Shown here piece by piece: positions 16,161-26,890 of a stretch of 53,233 nucleotides of DNA. The position numbers and the translations under genes were made by a program. Under the pieces are notes generated by a model. The model saw nothing but the letters and a program-made list of their open reading frames with translations, did not search any database and had not been told where the DNA came from. The stretch comes from Acidobacteriota bacterium (GTDB taxonomy: Bacteria > Acidobacteriota > Vicinamibacteria > Vicinamibacterales > Fen-181): the NCBI GenBank assembly GCA_017883185.1, contig JADGOB010000011.1, positions 1-53,233 on the forward strand, in the 5' to 3' direction. Position 1 is the first letter of the stretch; every line of letters begins with the position of its first letter.

Positions 16161-17087
16161 CTACCTGCCGGCCCGGAAGTAGGGGGCCCCATTGCGCAGG
16201 TGCGTCCGCCACTCGTTGGCGGCGGTGAACACCCGGTCGATCGTCGGGCCGTCGTGCAGACCCTGTCGCAAGGCCTGAAGCACCGCGATCAACTCGTCGA
16301 GCGCCGAACCGATCTCGTCGGCGTTGGTGGCGCAGATGTCGCGCCAGATGTCCGCGGGGCTCGCGGCCAGGCGCGTCGTGTCCACCAACCCGCGACCAGC
16401 CAGTTCCAGCCCCCCCTCTCCCGCACCTTCTCCAACCACCGACATCAGGGCGGACGCGGTCAACTGGGGCAACTGGCTGAGGAACGCCACCAACCGGTCG
16501 TGCGCGGCGGCTGACGGCAGTGTCACCGGCTTCGCACCCAGGCCCTGCACGAAGGCAGACAGGCGGCCAACCGTCTCAACCTGCTCACCCGCTCCCGCGA
16601 TGAACAGCCAGGGACGGCCGGTGAACAGATCGCGACGTGCCGCGTCGATGCCCCCGTGCGCCGCGCCGGCTAGCGGGTGGCCGCCGATGAACGCAAGACG
16701 CGCAGGAAGCGTCCGGGCCACCTCCACGATCGCGCGCTTCGTGCTCCCCACGTCGGTAACCACAGCGTCGGCGGCGATCCGTTCGGGCATGGTCGCCAGC
16801 AGGTCGAGGATCTGGCCGACGGGTGCGGCCAGGATGACCAGGTCGGCCTCCGAGATGATCATCAGATCTTCGGACGCCACATCGATGGCGTGGCGGACCA
16901 TCGCTTTCTCGAGGACAACGTTTCGATCGACGCCGATCACGAGCGCCTGCGGCCAAGCCTCGCGGACCGCGAGCGCAATCGACCCGCCGATCAGGCCGAG
17001 GCCCACCACCGCGATTCGCTCGAAGATCGGCGCCGCGCCGGTTGCGCCCTCAGGCACCATGGGAAGCATGCGTGACGAGTCGGTCAT
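16161..17087 (-). CDS. tyrA: Prephenate dehydrogenase (tyrosine branch)
   Basis: Oxidative decarboxylation of prephenate (or arogenate) for tyrosine synthesis. The dinucleotide-binding motif VGLGLIGGSIAL (about residues 28-39) is followed by IGVDRN, where an Asp after the second strand favours NAD. VTDVGSTKRAIVEVA and FIGGHPLAGAAHGG are the family signatures, and AGRGLVDTTRLA lies in the C-terminal helical domain. No ACT domain follows (308 aa), so allosteric control must act elsewhere. It is the last gene of the aro/trp operon, 88 bases after the DAHP synthase gene. Confidence 0.93.
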   Translation of the reverse strand: MTDSSRMLPMVPEGATGAAPIFERIAVVGLGLIGGSIALAVREAWPQALVIGVDRNVVLEKAMVRHAIDVASEDLMIISEADLVILAAPVGQILDLLATMPERIAADAVVTDVGSTKRAIVEVARTLPARLAFIGGHPLAGAAHGGIDAARRDLFTGRPWLFIAGAGEQVETVGRLSAFVQGLGAKPVTLPSAAAHDRLVAFLSQLPQLTASALMSVVGEGAGEGGLELAGRGLVDTTRLAASPADIWRDICATNADEIGSALDELIAVLQALRQGLHDGPTIDRVFTAANEWRTHLRNGAPYFRAGR

Positions 17088-17175: not shown

Positions 17176-18225
17176 CTATCTTGCCCACCCGCGGCGAGTC
17201 ACCGGCTCCACGCAGATGCTACGGCCAATCGCTGGAGCGATGATCCGCAGTTCGGCCATCAGGCGATCGAACTGCGCAGGGAACAGCGATTGCGCGCCGT
17301 CGCTGAGCGCGTGATCCGGATCGCAGTGCACCTCGATGATGAGGCCGTCGGCGCCCGCCGCCACCGCCGCACGCGCCATCGGGGCCACCTTGTCGCGGCG
17401 CCCGGTGCCGTGGCTCGGGTCGGCAATGATCGGAAGGTGGCTCAGCTTCTTCACGACGGGAATCGCGGAGATGTCGAGCGTGTTCCTCGTGTAGTTCTCG
17501 AACGTCCGGATGCCGCGTTCGCAGAGGATCACGTCGGGGTTGCCGCCCGCCAGCACGTACTCGGCCGACAAGAGCCATTCCTCGATCGTTGCCGCGATGC
17601 CTCGCTTGAGCAGGATGGGCTTCCGCAGGTGGCCCAGTTCGCGGAGCAGCGTGAAGTTCTGCATGTTCCGGGCGCCGACCTGCATGACGTCGGAATAGCG
17701 GGCCAGCAGCTCGACCTGAGCCACATCCATCACTTCGGAAACGACCTTGAGGTTCTGCTCGTCGGCCGCCCATCGGAGCAGCCGAAGGCCCTCTTCTCCG
17801 AGCCCCTGGAAGCTGTACGGAGAGCTGCGCGGCTTGAAAGCGCCACCCCTGAGGATCTTGGCGCCCGCCCGCTTCACCGCGGCCGCCGCCGCCCGCACCT
17901 GGGCCTCGGATTCGACCGCGCAGGGGCCCGCCATCACCACGACCTCGTCGCCGCCAATCCGCACGTCGCCAATCGTGACCACGGTGCCTTCGGGCCGGAA
18001 GCTCCGGCTCGCCAGCTTGTAGGGCTCGGTAATACGGACGACCTCGCGCACGCCGTCGAGCAACTCGATGAGCGCCGGCTCTGCGCGCTCGCTGCCGCCG
18101 ACGGCGCCGAGGATGACACGCGCGGCACCGGTCGAACGGTGGACGTCGAAGCCCATCGCGACCAACTGCCCGACCACCTGTTCGACCTGGGCGTCGGTTG
18201 CGCCCTCCGCCATTACGACAACCAC
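17176..18225 (-). CDS. aroF: 3-deoxy-7-phosphoheptulonate (DAHP) synthase, type I-beta
   Basis: First committed step of the shikimate pathway: condensation of PEP and erythrose 4-phosphate. The 349-residue protein has a ferredoxin-like N-terminal regulatory domain (about 1-75, VVVVMAEGATDAQVEQVV) and a TIM-barrel. The barrel shows MAGPCAVESEAQ, KILRGGAFKPRSSPYSFQG, VMQVGARNMQNF, KPILLKRG and IADPSHGTGRRD. This is the Thermotoga-like I-beta class, whose N-terminal domain binds aromatic amino acids. GTG 18225 is fixed by AGGAGG five bases upstream. It sits between chorismate mutase and tyrA. Confidence 0.93.
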   Translation of the reverse strand: MVVVMAEGATDAQVEQVVGQLVAMGFDVHRSTGAARVILGAVGGSERAEPALIELLDGVREVVRITEPYKLASRSFRPEGTVVTIGDVRIGGDEVVVMAGPCAVESEAQVRAAAAAVKRAGAKILRGGAFKPRSSPYSFQGLGEEGLRLLRWAADEQNLKVVSEVMDVAQVELLARYSDVMQVGARNMQNFTLLRELGHLRKPILLKRGIAATIEEWLLSAEYVLAGGNPDVILCERGIRTFENYTRNTLDISAIPVVKKLSHLPIIADPSHGTGRRDKVAPMARAAVAAGADGLIIEVHCDPDHALSDGAQSLFPAQFDRLMAELRIIAPAIGRSICVEPVTRRGWAR

Positions 18226-18251: not shown

Positions 18252-18527
18252 TTAGCGCACCGCCTTCAGTTCCAGCCCTCGAGCCTCGTCGATGATGCGC
18301 TCGAACAGCCGCGCGATCGCCTCCGGCCCGAGCGGCCCGCCGCCGGCGACAGACGCCGCCCGGACGCGGCGAAGCACCTCCGCTTCGCGCTCGGGCTGAT
18401 ACATGGGCAACTCCATGGTCTTCTTGGTCTGCCCGATCTGAAGCGCACACCTCGCCCGCTCGTTCAACAGCCGCACGATCTGCTCGTCGAGCTCATCGAT
18501 CCGCTGCCTGAGACTCTCGAGCGTCAC
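18252..18527 (-). CDS. Chorismate mutase, AroQ class (91 aa)
   Basis: Converts chorismate to prephenate. The all-helical AroQ fold is evident: LRQRIDELDEQIVRLLNERA at the start, the conserved IGQTKK, then PMYQPEREAEVLRRV, and IARLFERIIDEAR at the end, which carry the usual active-site Arg, Lys, Arg and Glu positions. The start is GTG 18527, overlapping the trpA stop as GTGA. With aroF and tyrA it forms the tyrosine-directed end of the operon. Confidence 0.9.
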   Translation of the reverse strand: MTLESLRQRIDELDEQIVRLLNERARCALQIGQTKKTMELPMYQPEREAEVLRRVRAASVAGGGPLGPEAIARLFERIIDEARGLELKAVR

Positions 18528-19342
18528 AGCTGTCCCGTTGTAGCGGTGCCGCTGCCCGCCCCTTTCAGCCATCGCACATACTGCTCAACCCGCTCCACAA
18601 GGTCCGGCGAATCCGCCGCCTCCGCGATGACACTCACCAGCGCGCTCCCGACGACGGCCGCGTCGGCCCAGGCGCCGACCTGCTGGATGTGCTCCGGTCG
18701 CGACAGGCCGAATCCGAGCGCGACGGGCAGCGTCGTGCGGACCCGAATCCGCGCGACAAGCTCCCTTGCGCCTTCCGGCAGCGTATCACGCGCACCGGTG
18801 ACGCCAAGGCGCGAGATCGCGTAGAGGAACCCCCGGCCGAGCGCCGCCGCCCGTCCAATCCGTTCATCGGTCGTCGTCGGGCTCAGCAGGAAGATCATGT
18901 CGATCGCGGCCGTTGTGAGCGTGGCCCTGAACGCGTCGGCCTCCTCGACCGGCAGGTCGAGCACCAGCACGCCGTCCACGCCGGCGGCCGCGGCGCGACG
19001 GGCAAACGCGCGCTCGCCCATCGCGACCAGCGGGTTCACGTAGGTGAACAGCACGATGGGTGCCCGGATGCCAGGACGAATCCGTTCGATCAGAACGAGC
19101 GTCGAGGTCAGCGTTCCGCCCGCGGCGCGCGCCCGCTCGGCGGCCCGTTCGATGACCGGCCCATCCGCCACCGGGTCGGAGAACGGCACGCCGACCTCGA
19201 GCACGTCCGCGCCGGCACGATCCAACGCCTGAAGCACCGAGGCGGATCGATCGAGGTCGGGATCCCCAGCCGTCACGTAGGTGATCAGTCCCGTCCGGCG
19301 GCGTGCACGCAAAGCGGCAAATGTGTCGTCAAGACGCGACAT
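18524..19342 (-). CDS. trpA: Tryptophan synthase alpha chain
   Basis: Cleaves indole-3-glycerol phosphate to indole, which is channelled to TrpB. It shows the family's YVTAGDPD (about residues 23-30) and the catalytic Glu in [17 protein letters not shown] (about 45-62), then TYVNPL and [15 protein letters not shown]. The phosphate-binding [10 protein letters not shown] and VVGSAL are near the end. ATG 19342 lies within the trpFB 3' end (14-base overlap) and suits the family N-terminus. Length 272 aa is normal. Confidence 0.96.
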
Positions 19343-21170
19343 CGCCCTCACTCTCCATCATCGTCTCCAGGTCCTTGTCGCCACGGCCGGACAGATTCAC
19401 CAGCACGACACCGCTCGGGCCCAGGTCCTGCGCCACCCGGCGGGCTGCCGCCACCGCGTGAGCCGACTCGAGCGCCGGGATGATCCCCTCGAGCCGCGCC
19501 AGGTCCCGAAACGCCGTCCGCGCATCGTCGTCACTCGCGAGGGTGTACTCCGTTCGCCCCTGGTCGCGCAGCCACGCGTGCTCGGGGCCGACGGCCGCGT
19601 AATCCATGCCGGCCGAGACCGAGTGCGTGGCCTCGATGTTGCCGTTCGCGTCCTGCAGGATGTAGGTGCGCGTGCCCTGGAGCACCCCAGCGCTGCCGCC
19701 GGCAAAACGCGCGGCGTGCCGCCCAGGGACCAGGCCTTCTCCACCCGCTTCAACGCCAACCAGCCGGACCGAGGAATCGTCCAGGAACGCGTCGAAGATG
19801 CCGATGGCGTTGCTGCCGCCGCCCACGCAGGCGACGACCGTGTCGGGCAACCGGCCTGCCTGCGCGAGGATCTGCCGCCTGGCCTCCAGACCGATGACCG
19901 ACTGGAACTCGCGAACCATCAACGGGTATGGATGCGGTCCCAACACCGAACCGAGCAGGTAGTAGGTGTCCTGGACGTTGGCCACCCAGTCGCGCATCGC
20001 CTCGTTGATCGCGTCCTTCAGCGTGCGCGATCCGCCGTCGACGCGCCGGATGCGAGCGCCCAACAACTCCATCCGCGCGACGTTCGGGGCCTGGCGGACC
20101 ATGTCCTTGGCGCCCATGTACACCTCGCACCGGAGGCCGAGCAACGCGCACGCAGTGGCCGTGGCCACGCCGTGCTGCCCTGCCCCCGTTTCGGCGATGA
20201 CCCGCGACTTCCCCATCCGCTGCGCGAGCAGGGCCTGCCCCAGCGCGTTATTGATCTTGTGCGCGCCGGTGTGCGCCAGGTCTTCGCGCTTCAGAAAGAT
20301 CCGTGCGCCACCGGAAAAGGGGGCTGCCCCCATTTTCGTCAGGCGGACGGTTTCGGTCAGCGGTGTCGGACGGCCCACGTAGTGCGCCAGCAGTTCGGCG
20401 AGCGCCACGGCAAACGCGGGGTCGGCTCTTGCCTCGAGGTAGGCCTCTTCCAGCACTTCCACGGGTGCGACGAGGGTCTCGGGCACGAACCTGCCGCCGA
20501 ACGCCCCGAAGTAGCCACGCGCGTCCGGGTCGCGGCGGCCGAACGCCGGCAGCAATCCAGCCGCAGCGCCGCGGACTGCCCCGAAGAACCTGCGCATCTT
20601 CTGATGGTCCTTGACGCCCGGGGCCGACTCCACCCCCGACGACACATCGACACCGAACGGTTGCACCGCGCGAATCGCGTGCGCGACGTTTTCTGGCGTC
20701 AAGCCGCCGGCCAGCATGAGCGGCCTTCGCGCGGCCATCCTGGCCGCCATTCCCCAATCGACGATCGAACCGGTCCCCCCGCGACGCCCCGCATCCGCAG
20801 CATCCACGAGCAGGGTCACGGTTTCCGGCCAGGCGTCAAGCGCGCCGAGGCCCTGCTGATCGGCCCGCACCGCCTTGATGACGCGGACGCCGAGACGCGA
20901 GGCGTTGGCCGGCGTCTCCGCCCCGTGCAACTGGACGGCCGACAGGCCAACCTCCTTGACGAGGCGACGCATGTGTTCGACGGTGTCGTCCACGAACACG
21001 CCGACGGCAGCGACGAACGGCGGCAGTCGCTCGACGATCCTGCGCGCGCGATCGGGTTCGATGAAGCGCGGGCTCCCCGGCCAGAAGACGAATCCGACCG
21101 CCGATGCGCCAAGCTCCACTGCGAGGCGAGCGTCCTCTTCCCGCGTGATTCCGCAAATCTTCACACACAT
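19329..21170 (-). CDS. trpFB: Fused phosphoribosylanthranilate isomerase-tryptophan synthase beta (TrpF-TrpB)
   Basis: One continuous frame of 613 codons. Residues 1-200 are TrpF: VKICGIT with the catalytic Cys, [17 protein letters not shown], and [10 protein letters not shown] with the catalytic Asp. Residues from about 215 are Trp[14 protein letters not shown], the PLP Lys in [20 protein letters not shown], and [10 protein letters not shown] for the phosphate. No stop or frameshift lies between. Fusion would give a bifunctional enzyme at the first and last steps around TrpC and TrpA. The segment just before KRED carries about 7-8 extra residues (KMGAAPFSG) encoded by a palindromic repeat. 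Start by TGATG overlap with trpC. Confidence 0.93.
20314..20337. repeat. Palindromic repeat within trpFB
   Basis: Arms GAAAA-GGGGGC and GCCCCC-ATTTTC around a single T form a near-perfect 24-base palindrome. It lies in frame within the TrpB part and encodes the extra residues KMGAAPFS. The sequence style matches the AAAATGGGG/CCCCATTTT palindromes common in such genomes. Confidence 0.6.
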
Positions 21171-21964
21171 CACAGCAATTCACCCAGGGCCTGGCCGGGA
21201 TCGGGCGACGACACCAGCCGTTCACCCACCAGGAACGCGTCGTACCCCGCGTCGCGGAGACGCCGCAGGTCGTCGCGATGGCGCAGACCGCTCTCGGCCA
21301 CCGCCACCACGTGATCGGGTATCTGCCCAATCATCTCCAGCGAGGCGGCCGGGTTGACCTCGAGCGTTCTCAGGTTCCGGTTGTTCACGCCGATCAGTCG
21401 CGGCCCCATGTCGATTGCGACCTCCAACTCATCGCGATCGTGAACTTCGACGAGCACGGCAAGACCCAGCGCGGTCGCCCGGTCGTGGAGCGCGCGAAGC
21501 ATGGCCGGCTCGAGCGCGGCCACGATCAGCAGCACCGCGTCGGCACCCGCCGCGCAAGCTTCGACCAGCTGATACTCATCGATCACAAAGTCCTTCCGCA
21601 GCAACGGCAGGCCGACGCGGGACCGCACGGACCGCAGGTCCTCCAGCGAGCCGTCGAAGAAGGTCGGCTCCGTCAGCACCGAGACCGCGGCCGCTCCGTG
21701 CGCCTCGTACCGTTCGGCAATCGCGCCCGCGTCGTAGTCGGCGCGCAGCACCCCGCGGCTCGGCGAACGCCGCTTGCACTCGGCGATCACGTTCAGCCCC
21801 GACGGACGCGAGAGCCGCTCGACGAAGCGGTCGCCTTCCGGACATCGCCTGTCGGCTGCCGCCGCCATCAGGTCCAGAGGCTCGCGCGCACGCCGGAGTT
21901 CCACCGTCCGGCGGGTCGCCGCCACGATCGCGCCGAGCAGGTCCGGGCCGACGGCTCGCGTCAT
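21170..21964 (-). CDS. trpC: Indole-3-glycerol phosphate synthase
   Basis: Ring closure step of tryptophan synthesis. The barrel signatures are [13 protein letters not shown] (about residues 59-71, catalytic Lys), [24 protein letters not shown] (catalytic Lys), LIGVNNRNL and [10 protein letters not shown]. Length 264 aa is normal for a monofunctional TrpC. Both ends overlap neighbours (ATGA with trpD, TGATG with trpFB), so translation is coupled. Confidence 0.96.
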
Positions 21965-22980
21965 GACCAGGCACCCGCGGACAATGCCACCATCTTCGCC
22001 AGCACGCCCGACGCGCGCCCGCTGTCGATGGCGTCAGCCGCCATCGCGATTCCTTCCCTCACCGTCGGCGCCGCCCCGGCCACCAGCAGCGCCGCCCCGG
22101 CGTTGAGCAACACGACGTCGCGCGGCGCGCCTGGAGTTCCGGCCAACACCGTCCGCGCGGTCTCCGCGTTGGCGGCCGCATCGCCGCCGCGAATCGACTC
22201 GGGAGCGGCCCGCGGCAGCCCGTAATCGGCCGGGTGTACATAGAACGTGTTCACCGTTTTGTGGCGGCACTCGGACACCTTCGTGTACCCCACAGTAGAG
22301 ATCTCGTCGAGGCCGTCGGCGCCATGAACGACCCACGCCCGCTCGGAACCGAGCAGCAACAGCGACCGCGCGATCAGCTCGGTCAGCTCGGGCCGCGGCA
22401 CGCCGACGAGCTGGCGCCGCGGCCGCACGGGATTGGTGAGCGGACCGAGCAGGTTGAAGGCGGTGCGGAGGCCGAGCGCGCGACGCACCGGCGCCGCGTG
22501 CCGCATCGACGGATGGAAGATCGGAGCGAACAGGAACGCCATCCCGGCCTCGTCGAGCATCCGCTCCACGCACCTGGGGGGGACAGCCGCCGGCACGCCG
22601 AGCGCCTCGAACAGGTCGGCGCTTCCACACCGACTCGACACGGATCGATTGCCGTGCTTCGCCACGCGCGCGCCGCACGCGGCGACGACGAGAGAGGCGA
22701 CCGAGGAGATGTTGAACGTGCCCGCGCGGTCGCCGCCCGTCCCGCACAAGTCCACCGCATCGTCGTATGTCTTCGACAACTGCACGGCCCTTTCGCGCAT
22801 CGTCCTCGCGAGGCCGACGATCTCAGCCGGGCGCTCGCCCTTCATCGCGAGCCCCATGAGCAGTCCGGCCATGGCCGGCTCGCTGACCGTGCCGTCCATG
22901 ATCTCGGCCATCGCGGCCGATGCCTCGTCGGCCGAGAGGTCCTCGCGTCGCGCCAGCTTCTCGAGCAGTTCGTGGAACAT
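21961..22980 (-). CDS. trpD: Anthranilate phosphoribosyltransferase
   Basis: Adds phosphoribosyl from PRPP to anthranilate. The glycine-rich PRPP site DLCGTGGDRAGTFNIS (about residues 78-93) is followed by KHGNRSVSSRCGSAD and FLFAPIFHPSMR, all family marks. FNLLGPLTNP follows. ATG 22980 gives the standard N-terminus (FHELLEKLARREDLSADEA) and 339 residues. It begins 5 bases after the trpG stop. Confidence 0.96.
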   Translation of the reverse strand: MFHELLEKLARREDLSADEASAAMAEIMDGTVSEPAMAGLLMGLAMKGERPAEIVGLARTMRERAVQLSKTYDDAVDLCGTGGDRAGTFNISSVASLVVAACGARVAKHGNRSVSSRCGSADLFEALGVPAAVPPRCVERMLDEAGMAFLFAPIFHPSMRHAAPVRRALGLRTAFNLLGPLTNPVRPRRQLVGVPRPELTELIARSLLLLGSERAWVVHGADGLDEISTVGYTKVSECRHKTVNTFYVHPADYGLPRAAPESIRGGDAAANAETARTVLAGTPGAPRDVVLLNAGAALLVAGAAPTVREGIAMAADAIDSGRASGVLAKMVALSAGAWS

Positions 22981-22985
22981 GCGCG

Positions 22986-23555
22986 TCAGCCCTGCAGGAA
23001 GTTCCGGAGGATCTGGTGGCCCGGGCCGGTCAGGATCGACTCGGGATGAAACTGGACGCCGAAAACCGGCCATTCCCGGTGCCGCAGCCCCATCACGATC
23101 GCATCGTCCCGCGTCCTGGCCGTCACGACGAGTTCGGACGGCCAGGCCTCCTCAGACACCACCAGCGAGTGATACCGGGCCGCCTCGAATGGCGACGCGA
23201 CGCCGGCGAAGATGCCGCGGGCGTCGTGCTCAACCAGCGAGGTCTTGCCGTGCACCGGCTTCGGCGCGCGGACGATGGCGCCGCCGAAGGCCAGGCCAAT
23301 CGCCTGGTGCCCGAGACAGACACCCAGCACCGGCGTCGTGCGGCCAAAGCACCGGATGGCCTCGACGATGAGGCCCGCATCGGCCGGGTGCCCCGGGCCG
23401 GGAGACACCACGATGCGGTCGGGCGCCGCGTCGGCCACCCCGCCGAGCGTCACCTGGTCGTTGCGCCGCACCAGCACCTCGGCACCCAGTTCTCCAAGGT
23501 ACTGAACCAGGTTAAAGGTGAAGGAATCGTAGTTGTCGATGACGAGGACGCGCAT
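22986..23555 (-). CDS. trpG: Anthranilate synthase glutaminase subunit
   Basis: Class I glutamine amidotransferase, 189 aa, supplying ammonia to TrpE. It opens VLVIDNYDSFTFNLVQYLGE, has the nucleophile Cys in GVCLGHQAIG (about residue 79), and ends with the His-Glu pair in VQFHPESILT. The order trpE-trpG is tight (4 bases between). The same subunit could also serve para-aminobenzoate synthesis, which cannot be judged here. Confidence 0.95.
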   Translation of the reverse strand: MRVLVIDNYDSFTFNLVQYLGELGAEVLVRRNDQVTLGGVADAAPDRIVVSPGPGHPADAGLIVEAIRCFGRTTPVLGVCLGHQAIGLAFGGAIVRAPKPVHGKTSLVEHDARGIFAGVASPFEAARYHSLVVSEEAWPSELVVTARTRDDAIVMGLRHREWPVFGVQFHPESILTGPGHQILRNFLQG

Positions 23556-23559
23556 AGGC

Positions 23560-25038
23560 TCACAACCCTTCCGACGCCAGCTCGAGCGCTCGCATCAATG
23601 CCTCGGCCTTGTCGCACGTCTCGTCGAACTCGGCCGCAGGGACCGAGTCCATCACGATACCGGCGCCCGCCTGCACGCGCGCCCTCGTCCCGGTCATGAC
23701 AATCGTGCGGATGGCGATACAGAAGTCGAGGTTTCCCGCGAAGTCGAGATATCCGACCGCGCCGGCGTAGATGCCGCGGCGGTCTGGCTCGAGCTCGGCG
23801 ATGATCTCAATCGCCCGGATCTTCGGCGCGCCGGAGACGGTGCCGGCCGGGAAGCACGAGACGAGCGCGTCCAGCCGGTCGCACTCCTTCGCAAGTCTCC
23901 CCTCGACCACCGACACCAGGTGCATCACGTGCGAATACCGCTCGAGGCCCATGAACTGCGGGACGCGAACCGTGCCGTACTCGGCGACCCGTCCCACGTC
24001 GTTCCGGCCAAGATCGACGAGCATCACGTGCTCGGCCCGTTCCTTCTCGCTCGCCTTCAGTTCCTCGGCGAGCCGGACGTCCTCGGCGTCGTTGTGCCCG
24101 CGGGGCCGCGTCCCGGCGATCGGGTGCGTCTCCACGCGGTCCCCCTCGACGCGCACGAGCATCTCGGGCGACGATCCGACAATCGAGCGTTTCCCCATCC
24201 GCACGAAGAACATGTACGGCGACGGGTTGACGTGCCTCAGGGCGCGGTAGACCGTAAACGGATCCACCTCGACATCCGCCTCGAAGCGCTGTGACAGCAC
24301 CACCTGGTAGATGTCGCCCGCGGCGATGTGCTCCTGACCGATTCGTACCGCCGCTTCGAACTGCTCCCGCGTGATGTTCGACCGCACGGTCAGCGGCGCG
24401 CCCGGCCGGCTGATCGGCTGCGAGAGGCTCGCCTGCAGTTCGCGTTCGAGGAACCCGATCTTGGCGCACGCGAACTGGTACAGCGACCCGAGGTCGTCGC
24501 CCGGCTGGACGCGTGCGTTGGAGATGATCAGGATCCGGTGGCGCACATGGTCGAACGCCAGGACCGTGTCGAACATCATGAAGCCCGCGGCAGGCTCCGC
24601 CTCGTCTCCTCCTGCCGCGGCCTGGAGCGAGACCGGCTCGAACCACGCGGTGGTGTCGTACCCGAGGAAGCCGACAGCGCCGCCGGTGAACCTGGGCAGA
24701 TCGGGAACGACCGGCGACTTGAAGTCGGCCATCAGGCGACGGAGCGTCGGGATGAACGGTTCGGTGGTCTCGCTCGTCACGCCGGCGCGATCGATCGTTG
24801 TTCGACCGTCGAGATCCGCGCGCAACACGAGGAAGGGGTCTTTCCCCAGGAACGAATAGCGGCCGACGTGCTCGCCACCTTCCACGCTCTCGAGGAGGAA
24901 CGCGTAGTCCGAGTGCTCCGCGATCTTCAGGAACGCGGACACCGGAGTGAGCAAGTCGGCCATGATCTCCTTGCAGACCGGCACGAACGTGCCCTGCGTG
25001 GCCAGCGCGGAGAATTCAGCGAACGACGTGATCTTCAT
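23560..25038 (-). CDS. trpE: Anthranilate synthase component I
   Basis: Makes anthranilate from chorismate using ammonia from TrpG. The N-terminal FLLESVEGG contains the LLES motif that binds tryptophan for feedback inhibition, which argues for TrpE rather than PabB. Chorismate-binding signatures are GDIYQVVLSQRF, SPEMLVRVEGD, PIAGTRPRG, VDLGRNDVGRV, and PAGTVSGAPK. The start ATG 25038 overlaps the aroDE stop as ATGA. Length is 492 aa. Confidence 0.96.
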   Translation of the reverse strand: MKITSFAEFSALATQGTFVPVCKEIMADLLTPVSAFLKIAEHSDYAFLLESVEGGEHVGRYSFLGKDPFLVLRADLDGRTTIDRAGVTSETTEPFIPTLRRLMADFKSPVVPDLPRFTGGAVGFLGYDTTAWFEPVSLQAAAGGDEAEPAAGFMMFDTVLAFDHVRHRILIISNARVQPGDDLGSLYQFACAKIGFLERELQASLSQPISRPGAPLTVRSNITREQFEAAVRIGQEHIAAGDIYQVVLSQRFEADVEVDPFTVYRALRHVNPSPYMFFVRMGKRSIVGSSPEMLVRVEGDRVETHPIAGTRPRGHNDAEDVRLAEELKASEKERAEHVMLVDLGRNDVGRVAEYGTVRVPQFMGLERYSHVMHLVSVVEGRLAKECDRLDALVSCFPAGTVSGAPKIRAIEIIAELEPDRRGIYAGAVGYLDFAGNLDFCIAIRTIVMTGTRARVQAGAGIVMDSVPAAEFDETCDKAEALMRALELASEGL

Positions 25039-26507
25039 GCAGCACCTGTCATCTGTCTCAGGCGGTTGGCGGCGGCGGCGCGCATCCGCTCGCGCGGCGC
25101 CGACGTGGCCGTCCACCATTCGAACTGCAGCGCGGCCTGCGCCACGAGCATCTCGAGGCCGCCGACCACGCGGCAACCCGCCGCGGCCGCGTCGCGAAGC
25201 AACCTCGTCTCTACGGGGTTGTACACGAGGTCGTACACAAGGTTTCCGCCTTCGAGGGCGGCGGATCCGATCGGGCTCTCGACGGTGTTCGGCCACGTCC
25301 CGACCGGCGTGGCGTTGACCAGCAGATCCCAACTCCCCGGCTCGGGAAGACCCGCTCGAGCCTGGCTTCCGGGAATCAGCGCCGCGATGCGCCCCGCCCG
25401 ATCCCCGTTGCGCCCGTAGACGACGACATCCGCGCCCCGGGTCGACAGGGCGACGACAACGGCGCGTGCGGCACCACCTGTGCCAATGACCGCGGCGCGC
25501 GCGCCCCGCAACTCGATGCCGCGACCATCGAGCGGATGCAGGAACCCGTCAACGTCGGTGTTGCGGACCGACCAGCGGCCGGCATCGATGCGCAGCGTGT
25601 TGGCCGCGCCGCACGCGCGGGCCACGGCATCGGCGTTCTCCGAGCCGCGCAGCAGGTCCACCTTGAACGGCGCCGTGACGCTGGCACCAGCGAGATCGAC
25701 GGCCGCGGCGAACGCCCGAAAGTCGGCCGCATCCCTGGCCGCCAGCGGAACGTACACACCGTCGAAGCCTGTCTCGTCGAAGGCGGCGTTGTGAATCGCC
25801 GGCGACACCGAGTGCTCGACCGGGCGGCCGACGATGCCGAACACCCGCGTGGCCGAACCGACATCGCGGAACCGGAACTCGGACAACAGGCGCTCTGGCG
25901 GCAACTGTCCCGGGGCGACGCCGTCCCCCGCGTAAGACCAGCAGGAGCCAAACCTCGCGGCCAGGATCCGGCTCGGCAGACCGGGCATTCCCATCGCCAC
26001 GAGAGCCACGGGCGCGCGCCCGGTGGCCTCCCGGCCGAACGCCAGCAGCGGAAGATTGTCGACCAGCGCGTGCGCAGTCACCGCGATCTTCACGACCTCC
26101 GCCCCTGTGCCCCGCATCGCGCGGTAGCGCTCGGCCAGGTCCGCCGGCACGCCGCCGAAATCGTGCGAGGACAGGACTATGCCCCGGCCTGCGCGCAGCG
26201 CCAGGATTGGAGCGACCTCCGCCCCCCACTCGACGTCCACGTAGTCGGCGCCTTGTCGCGCAGCCTGCTCGAGGAAGCCCAGGCGCTCGGCCTCGGAGCC
26301 GTCGAAGGCGCCGCCTTCGCGTCGGGGCCGGCACGTCACAATCACCCTTGTCCGTCGGCCGGCCAGGGCGCCCGCGACGTCGATGTCGCGAACGCCGTCC
26401 AGGCGAAGCTCGACGACATCGGCAACCGCGGCCGCCCGGTCGCGCGCTGCCCGCAGTTCGGCCATCGTGTGCGCGGTCACAGTCACGCAGAGTCCGGTGG
26501 TGTTCAT
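25035..26507 (-). CDS. aroDE: Fused 3-dehydroquinate dehydratase-shikimate dehydrogenase (AroD-AroE)
   Basis: Residues 1-220 are a type I dehydroquinase: VELRLDGVRD, ILSSHDFGG-like SSHDFGG (catalytic His), and VVKIAVTA with the Schiff-base Lys. From about 235 it is a shikimate dehydrogenase: VFGIVGRPVEHSVSPAIHN, ASVTAPFKVDLL, NTDVDGF, and the NADP loop GTGGAARAVV, ending MLVAQAALQFEWWT. This bifunctional arrangement is known from plants and some bacteria. ATG 26507 starts directly after the U-rich end of the attenuator terminator, so its ribosome site must lie in or just before that tract. It is the first structural gene of the operon. Confidence 0.95.
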   Translation of the reverse strand: MNTTGLCVTVTAHTMAELRAARDRAAAVADVVELRLDGVRDIDVAGALAGRRTRVIVTCRPRREGGAFDGSEAERLGFLEQAARQGADYVDVEWGAEVAPILALRAGRGIVLSSHDFGGVPADLAERYRAMRGTGAEVVKIAVTAHALVDNLPLLAFGREATGRAPVALVAMGMPGLPSRILAARFGSCWSYAGDGVAPGQLPPERLLSEFRFRDVGSATRVFGIVGRPVEHSVSPAIHNAAFDETGFDGVYVPLAARDAADFRAFAAAVDLAGASVTAPFKVDLLRGSENADAVARACGAANTLRIDAGRWSVRNTDVDGFLHPLDGRGIELRGARAAVIGTGGAARAVVVALSTRGADVVVYGRNGDRAGRIAALIPGSQARAGLPEPGSWDLLVNATPVGTWPNTVESPIGSAALEGGNLVYDLVYNPVETRLLRDAAAAGCRVVGGLEMLVAQAALQFEWWTATSAPRERMRAAAANRLRQMTGAA

Positions 26508-26551
26508 AAAAAAGAAAAAAGCCTCTTCAACCGTCTGGCTGAAGAGGCTTT
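26508..26551 (-). terminator. Attenuator terminator of the aro/trp operon
   Basis: A perfect 12-bp stem (AAAGCCTCTTCA with TGAAGAGGCTTT, 26518-26551) with a 10-base loop is followed by a run of U with one C (26508-26517). It ends exactly at the aroDE start codon. This is an intrinsic terminator placed inside the leader, as in trp attenuation. Confidence 0.88.
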
Positions 26552-26597
26552 CAACAGTCACAAGCTCGGGCGGCTCAGGACACAGAAACCTCTTCAG
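26539..26597 (-). promoter_or_regulatory. Antiterminator (segments 2 and 3 of the attenuator)
   Basis: Segment 2 (26585-26597, CTGAAGAGGTTTC) is complementary to segment 3 (26539-26552, GAAAGCCTCTTCAG) over 9 pairs plus 4 with one bulged G. Segment 3 is also the 5' arm of the terminator, so the two structures exclude each other. A further GGTGTC/GACACC helix (26636-26641 with 26599-26604) encloses the Trp codons and would be segment 1. Confidence 0.8.
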
Positions 26598-26700
26598 GGG
26601 TGTCGTACCACCACCATCCACGAGACGAGACCGAAGACACCTCCACCCCGGCGCGCGGCGCGCTCTCGAATGCGCGAAGACGGGGATGGCGTTCGGTCAT
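26575..26700 (-). CDS. trpL: trp operon leader peptide with three tandem Trp codons
   Basis: A 41-codon ORF begins at ATG 26700 (another in-frame ATG is at 26703) and ends at TGA 26575-26577. Three consecutive TGG codons lie at 26608-26616, followed by Tyr (GWWWYDTPEEVS). A ribosome stalled at the Trp codons would leave segment 2 free to form the antiterminator; one that reaches the stop would cover segment 2 and let the terminator form. No strong Shine-Dalgarno sequence precedes the start. It is too short for standard gene calling. The triple Trp, the position and the hairpins together make the assignment strong. Confidence 0.85.
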   Translation of the reverse strand: MTERHPRLRAFESAPRAGVEVSSVSSRGWWWYDTPEEVSVS

Positions 26701-26735
26701 CATCGGAGGTCTGAGTTGATCGAGCCGAAGACGAC

Positions 26736-26764
26736 ACGTTACCAGAGTCGCTGCGGTGCGTCAA
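26736..26764 (-). promoter_or_regulatory. Promoter of the aro/trp operon
   Basis: TTGACG (26759-26764) and TAACGT (26736-26741) are spaced by exactly 17 bases. Transcription would start near 26729, about 27 bases before the leader-peptide ATG, giving a leader of about 220 bases ahead of aroDE. Confidence 0.7.
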
Positions 26765-26770
26765 CCGAGC

Positions 26771-26831
26771 GGCGCTCGCCGGTGTGGCGTTCACCGGTGT
26801 GGAGCGTTCGCCGGGTGGCGCTCGCCGAGCG
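26771..26831. repeat. Four 15-base tandem repeats upstream of the aro/trp promoter
   Basis: Units GGCGCTCGCCGGTGT, GGCGTTCACCGGTGT, GGAGCGTTCGCCGGGT and GGCGCTCGCCGAGCG follow head to tail just upstream of the -35 element. They may bind a regulator or may be a neutral repeat expansion. Confidence 0.55.
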
Positions 26832-26890
26832 ATGCTCGCGGCGTTCGCGCGGAGGCGCGCTCCTTGACCACTGAGCAGTTTCTACGCCTA

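Follow-up and report, generated by a model that had tools for sequence, protein, structure and literature searches.

A candidate ribosome-mediated attenuator with Trp, Tyr and Phe codons upstream of the shikimate-tryptophan-tyrosine operon in Vicinamibacterales

The window, by which we mean the whole 53,233-nt stretch of DNA analysed here, makes up a single contig in a draft genome of 4.85 Mb, most likely from an uncultured acidobacterium of the order Vicinamibacterales. Its minus strand carries a ten-gene operon, aroDE-trpEGDC(FB)A-aroQ-DAHP synthase-tyrA, whose genes are as follows.

25035-26507, minus strand: aroDE, fused 3-dehydroquinate dehydratase / shikimate dehydrogenase (TIGR01093 and TIGR00507 domains)
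23560-25038, minus strand: trpE, anthranilate synthase component I (TIGR00564 above cut-off)
22986-23555, minus strand: trpG, anthranilate synthase component II (domain scan)
21961-23073, minus strand: trpD (TIGR01245)
21170-21964, minus strand: trpC (domain scan)
19329-21173, minus strand: trpF-trpB fusion, one 614-aa ORF (TIGR00263 and PRK01222 domains)
18524-19351, minus strand: trpA (PF00290)
18252-18527, minus strand: ORF that we take to be an aroQ-type chorismate mutase (from its sequence; same place in the operons of relatives)
17176-18225, minus strand: DAHP synthase, aroF/aroG type (PF00793 and PF18152; start codon approximate)
16161-17087, minus strand: tyrA, prephenate dehydrogenase (PF02153 and PF20463)

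The genes stand in this order in all 20 operons sampled, in a comparison where trpG and aroQ are missing from some rows and genome G060 has no DAHP synthase in place. The gaps at trpG arise at least partly because an overlap filter dropped this gene beside trpD, and one row (G004) has no tyrA because the contig ends before it. The operon content (Trp, Tyr and their shared precursors) fits the amino acids that the leader described below would read. Upstream of aroDE lie the following elements.

26736-26764, minus strand: promoter TTGACG-N17-TAACGT (TTGACG 26764-26759, TAACGT 26741-26736), recognised from the sequence
26575-26703, minus strand: leader peptide ORF, (M)MTERHPRLRAFESAPRAGVEVSSVSSRGWWWYDTPEEVSVS and a stop codon, start at 26703 or 26700; C-terminal half kept in 87 of 88 orthologous regions
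26605-26616, minus strand: putative stall cluster TGG TGG TGG TAC (Trp-Trp-Trp-Tyr; TGGs 26616-26608, TAC 26607-26605)
26585-26597, minus strand: segment 2, 5' arm of the antiterminator, within the leader ORF, CTGAAGAGGTTTC (pairing and covariation with segment 3)
26537-26552, minus strand: segment 3, 3' arm of the antiterminator and 5' arm of the terminator (pairing and covariation)
26517-26532, minus strand: segment 4, 3' arm of the terminator (3:4 helix pairing and compensatory changes)
26508-26520, minus strand: T-rich tract of the intrinsic terminator, abutting the aroDE start codon (ATG 26507)

Most of these parts had been described in an earlier note on this DNA, and they were found where the note had placed them: the promoter, the 41-codon leader ORF (ATG 26700 to TGA 26575), the three tandem TGG codons, and a T-rich tail that runs to 26508, next to the ATG of aroDE. 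The promoter has 8 of 12 matches, below the 9/12 threshold of our sigma-70 scan, and for this reason the scan did not list it. Imperfect direct repeats of 23-33 nt units (GCGTTCGCCGGGTGGCGCTCGCC type) at 26749-26863 lie directly upstream of the -35 box and overlap it; they are possibly an operator or mere GC-rich repeat DNA. The leader ORF can equally well begin at an adjoining in-frame ATG (26703), and no Shine-Dalgarno sequence is evident at its start codon. The note had missed the Tyr codon (TAC) that follows the three Trp codons. The antiterminator pairing that it proposed is present, the GAAAGCCTCTTCAG portion of segment 3 (26552-26539) being complementary to segment 2, CTGAAGAGGTTTC (26597-26585). 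The terminator hairpin also lies where the note had drawn a perfect 12-bp stem (26518-26551), but the stem is longer than that, with 16 pairs (26552-26537 with 26532-26517) closing on an AGAC loop. The terminator hairpin folds at -26.3 kcal/mol, against -11.3 ± 2.5 in shuffled sequences (z -6.0); set side by side, the 3:4 and 2:3 hairpins have about -25.7 and -24.5 kcal/mol, and the whole leader folds with z = -3.2 relative to shuffles.

The same arrangement, an aromatic-rich leader ORF followed by segments 2, 3 and 4, is present upstream of aroDE in 87 of the 88 regions read, which represent 15 families of Vicinamibacterales, aroDE itself being present in 93 of 100 relatives, most of them metagenome assemblies. 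We aligned 84 of these leaders; three of the 87 stayed outside the alignment (L036, L054 and L071), the last because its terminator is degenerate. Leader cores such as SYWWWY, WWYWC, WRWYW, WYWYW, WWWYYAF, YWWWFFYF and WFWFIYF illustrate the range of aromatic clusters. A further set, drawn separately and partially overlapping with the first, also shows the leader at those Vicinamibacterales loci where the upstream DNA is long enough. Conversely, it is absent at the aroDE homologues examined outside the class (Planctomycetes, Desulfobacterota, Chloroflexota and archaea), and the genome of the window has no second copy, its other matches having E ≥0.2 or falling on the reverse strand of the same hairpin. 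The sole exception among the 88 regions (L009, positions 1-430, genome G005, same family) has aroDE without any leader or terminator, so the leader can be lost; this locus may reflect a natural loss of the attenuator or a fault of metagenome assembly. Four records titled Bifidobacterium breve, Acidimicrobiia or Cyanobacteria (L149, L156, L170 and L202) bear the Vicinamibacterales operon and leader and are probably mislabelled metagenome genomes.

Comparing related leaders for Trp codons and competing stems was the check that the earlier note had proposed. At least one TGG is found in each aligned leader, and both helices are kept with compensatory changes; a few leaders (G035, G046 and G072) have a single Trp codon in the cluster, which counts against attenuation. 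The antiterminator (2:3, nine pairs) is formed in 92.8% of alignment cells with compensatory change in four pairs, and the terminator (3:4, 13 pairs) in 97.4% of cells with compensatory change in eight pairs, whereas control helices slid by 1-3 columns are paired in 42-63% (antiterminator) and 36-63% (terminator) of cells. Three columns of segment 3 (147, 149 and 150) covary both with segment 2 and with segment 4, as expected for the mutually exclusive helices that the note had read from the window. An E. coli-type segment 1 is not conserved, the best upstream complement of segment 2 scoring 13.55 against 13.50 in shuffled sequences, and the 1:2 hairpin of E. coli thus has no counterpart here. 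Since no separate protector segment is conserved, it is probably the ribosome itself that masks segment 2.

The codon content of the leaders bears on which amino acids would be read. Within a 9-codon core, Trp, Tyr and Phe make up 31%, 14% and 7% of codons, compared to 0.5%, 0.9% and 4.0% elsewhere in the leader ORFs, and the enrichment of Tyr is 16-fold. This core was picked by its aromatic content, and more weight therefore falls on a window placed by Trp alone, in which we counted 73 Tyr codons against 22.7 ± 4.3 after shuffling (maximum 37 in 1000 shuffles) and, a modest enrichment, 42 Phe codons against 28 ± 4.8. Both synonyms are in use for Tyr (70 TAT and 41 TAC) and for Phe (41 TTT and 17 TTC), so that the amino acid is conserved and not the DNA. 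The prephenate dehydratase domain (PF00800) was matched in 79 of 100 genomes searched and not in the other 21, among them the genome of the window, which is estimated to be 100% complete; its presence as the cause of Phe codons in the leaders was considered, and the association is not significant (Fisher p = 0.097).

The strongest argument comes from the spacing of the cluster. Between the last aromatic codon, whether Trp, Tyr or Phe, and segment 2 there are 8, 11 or 14 nt in 71 of the 84 leaders (SD 2.7); counted from the last Trp codon, the gap is anywhere between 8 and 26 nt (SD 5.0). In 2000 permutations no spacing was as tight as that from the last aromatic codon, and with one leader sampled per family the median p was < 0.005; as the leaders are kin, p-values from permutation are too favourable unless one leader per family is drawn. 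Of the 84 last aromatic codons, 35 are Trp, 25 Phe and 24 Tyr, and the stop codon follows segment 2 mostly by 7, 10 or 13 nt. A bacterial ribosome reaches about 12 nt past the first base of the A-site codon. With this reach, a ribosome held at the last aromatic codon would just clear segment 2, and one at the stop codon would cover it. The decisive stall position is thus predicted to be the last aromatic codon and not the last Trp codon.

These data also weigh on the reading that the attenuator responds to Trp only, with the TGG codons alone mattering and the neighbouring Tyr and Phe codons incidental. Trp is enriched far more than any other residue of the core and no aligned leader is without it; the operon genes are mostly trp genes, and the window itself has just one Tyr codon, after its three Trp codons. 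We nevertheless consider a Trp-only sensor unlikely, given the abundance of Tyr in the core and a spacing to segment 2 that follows the last aromatic codon. In families f9 and f14, for example, the Trp codons are mostly 20-26 nt away from segment 2, and it is Phe or Tyr codons that stand at the stall position; the operon includes, besides the trp genes, tyrA, DAHP synthase, chorismate mutase and aroDE. From codon content and spacing, the sensor appears not to be Trp-only, its conserved stall cluster consisting of Trp and Tyr codons, joined by Phe codons in several families.

The promoter pattern seen in the window recurs across the order: TTGAC[A/G]-17/18-TAnnnT stands upstream of the leaders, and 94% of them score higher here than 95% of shuffled regions do. 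The distance from the -10 hexamer to the first in-frame start codon is 7-17 nt in 57 of 81 leaders, where 29% would be expected, and is most often 9-12 nt. Transcription usually starts 5-7 nt past the -10 box. The average in Streptomyces lividans is 6.3 nt (PMC8079986). Start codons this close to the -10 box suggest that the leader mRNA is in most families probably leaderless or has a 5' untranslated part of a few bases; the window and most of its genus differ, with the ATG about 32 nt past the -10 box. The trpL of Sinorhizobium meliloti is likewise a leaderless small mRNA, and its RNA and peptide (rnTrpL and peTrpL) act in trans (PMC7298713), which raises the question of whether the terminated leader RNA or the peptide here acts mainly in trans, with attenuation secondary. 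Most leader ORFs do begin near the expected transcription start, as in Sinorhizobium, but little of the peptide's N-terminal half is conserved, in contrast to the stall cluster and to segments 2-4 with their spacing, a signature of attenuation in cis; we regard a primary role in trans as very improbable, although one in addition to attenuation could exist. Least credible of all is a reading in which the hairpin serves as an ordinary terminator, or the run of TGG codons is no more than a GGT repeat, with aroDE starting further upstream (a 528-aa ORF from GTG 26621): the aroDE frame is indeed open to 26621 in the window, but the terminator-to-aroDE distance varies from about 6 to 200 nt in relatives, so that an N-terminal extension of aroDE is not conserved and was rejected, the codons change (TGG CGG TGG TAT TGG or TGG TAT TGG TAT TGG, for instance) without loss of the Trp frame, and segment 2 covaries with segment 3, which such a terminator would not need.

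Our preferred reading, to which we assign a probability of about 0.87, is a ribosome-mediated transcription attenuator that reads charged aromatic tRNAs (Trp first, also Tyr, and Phe in some families) and controls the shikimate-Trp-Tyr operon. On this model, RNA polymerase would start about 6-8 nt past 26736 and transcribe the leader ORF, with a ribosome translating close behind. When charged tRNA-Trp (or tRNA-Tyr) is scarce, the ribosome would stall on the WWWY cluster with its front edge on the first base of segment 2, 8 nt past the last aromatic codon, or slightly short of it; segment 2 would then be available to segment 3, the terminator would be blocked and the operon transcribed. When the aromatic tRNAs are charged, the ribosome would reach the stop codon 7 nt past segment 2 and cover that segment, so that segment 3 would pair with segment 4 and transcription would end in the T tract before aroDE.

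Attenuation by a translating ribosome is textbook knowledge, with most known cases coming from Proteobacteria and Actinobacteria. In E. coli, the trpL leader has 14 codons. The leader described here resembles it (RF00513, Trp_leader) in its tandem Trp codons, predicted ribosome stall, alternative 2:3 and 3:4 helices, T tract and downstream Trp genes. Unlike trpL, it has an ORF of about 30-42 codons with segment 2 inside it, no conserved segment 1 and Tyr/Phe codons in the cluster, and it precedes an operon that opens with aroDE and has tyrA, DAHP synthase and chorismate mutase. A search of Rfam at the gathering threshold and at E up to 10 gave no attenuator, T-box or riboswitch match at the leader; the weak matches there were two plasmid antisense RNAs and a microRNA model on the terminator hairpin. 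In the sequence we found a leader ORF rich in codons for the operon's products, an intrinsic terminator before the first gene, a mutually exclusive antiterminator that uses the terminator's 5' arm, and stall and stop codons placed as in attenuators generally; we did not find an RF00513 match, a segment 1, or Trp as the sole regulatory codon. The element would accordingly act like a trp attenuator and is classed apart from Trp_leader. Of the E. coli trp logic that the earlier note had proposed, the core idea, that a ribosome controls an aromatic operon of an acidobacterium by attenuation, has strong support from conservation, covariation and geometry; the E. coli model itself carries over only in part, given the Trp and Tyr (and Phe) cluster, the predicted weight of the last aromatic codon, the lack of a conserved segment 1 and an ORF that is probably near-leaderless in most of the order.

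The enterobacterial ilvGMEDA and thr leaders sense Ile/Leu/Val or Thr/Ile, and they share with the present leader a single peptide with codons for several end products of the operon, although the amino acids differ. We know of no attenuator for Trp, Tyr and Phe together, and a search of open-licence papers found no description of acidobacterial trp attenuation or of a three-aromatic leader. The trp attenuators of Corynebacterium and Streptomyces (PMC1262725, PMC8079986) likewise combine terminator and antiterminator and have two or three UGG codons, and the trp leader peptide of S. lividans is leaderless (PMC8079986); these attenuators differ from the present one in that they read Trp only, stand before trpE, trp operons or trpS, and have other sequences in another phylum. 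The S. meliloti trpL (rnTrpL) is similar in its leaderless ORF, consecutive Trp codons and terminated leader RNA, but its peptide has 14 aa, it controls trpE(G) only, and functions in trans were shown there (PMC7298713). According to a 2010 survey, almost no predicted attenuators in Acidobacteria have an assigned function (PMC2965389). The present element, not in Rfam, is kept across an order of a dominant and mostly uncultured phylum. It would place the common shikimate genes, the Trp genes and tyrA under one sensor, apparently responsive to several aromatic amino acids. With no protector segment, its anatomy is simpler and predicts that an untranslated leader is read through, opposite to E. 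coli.

Similar leaders occur elsewhere in Acidobacteriota. A phylum-wide search with our covariance model gave many matches at E 1e-5 to 1e-2 that are merely terminator hairpins, and these were not counted as leaders. Inspection by eye revealed leaders with WWWY or WWWC in front of a TrpB2-like gene (G336, G435, G129, G225 and G116), trpE (G210) and aroDE (G138). Leaders of this kind at L128, L129, L134, L135, L136, L133 and L130, in other classes, have alternative helices whose sequences differ (CCGGAGGGC type). A broader reading is that a pan-aromatic sensor, one peptide that reads tRNA-Trp, tRNA-Tyr and tRNA-Phe charging at a single ribosome position, without a protector hairpin and mostly leaderless, was the original control of the shikimate-Trp-Tyr operon throughout the order, and that related attenuators, for Trp before trpB2 and trpE and for branched-chain amino acids before ilvE, are general in the phylum; we put the chances of this at about even.

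In family f56 of another class, ten loci (L140, L141 and L262-L269) have a Leu/Val-rich leader ORF (e.g., MTRPAILLLLVLVLVLVTQGAN and a stop codon), followed by CAGGGGGCT, AGCCCCCAG and CTGGGGGCTTTTTT, directly before ilvE, with alternative helices peculiar to these leaders. By eye, these are likely branched-chain attenuators, picked up by the model because their terminators resemble ours by chance; L271 (G113) perhaps has the same leader type before ilvE. In family f16, of the same class and another order, four loci (L142, L146, L147 and L175) carry before aroDE a leader like RRWRPIFHRYHRT with its stop codon, containing Trp, Phe, Tyr and His codons. The complement of segment 3 (e.g., GGTTTCCTGGAGAG) lies about 36 nt past the leader stop codon in these loci, so the ribosome geometry must differ there.
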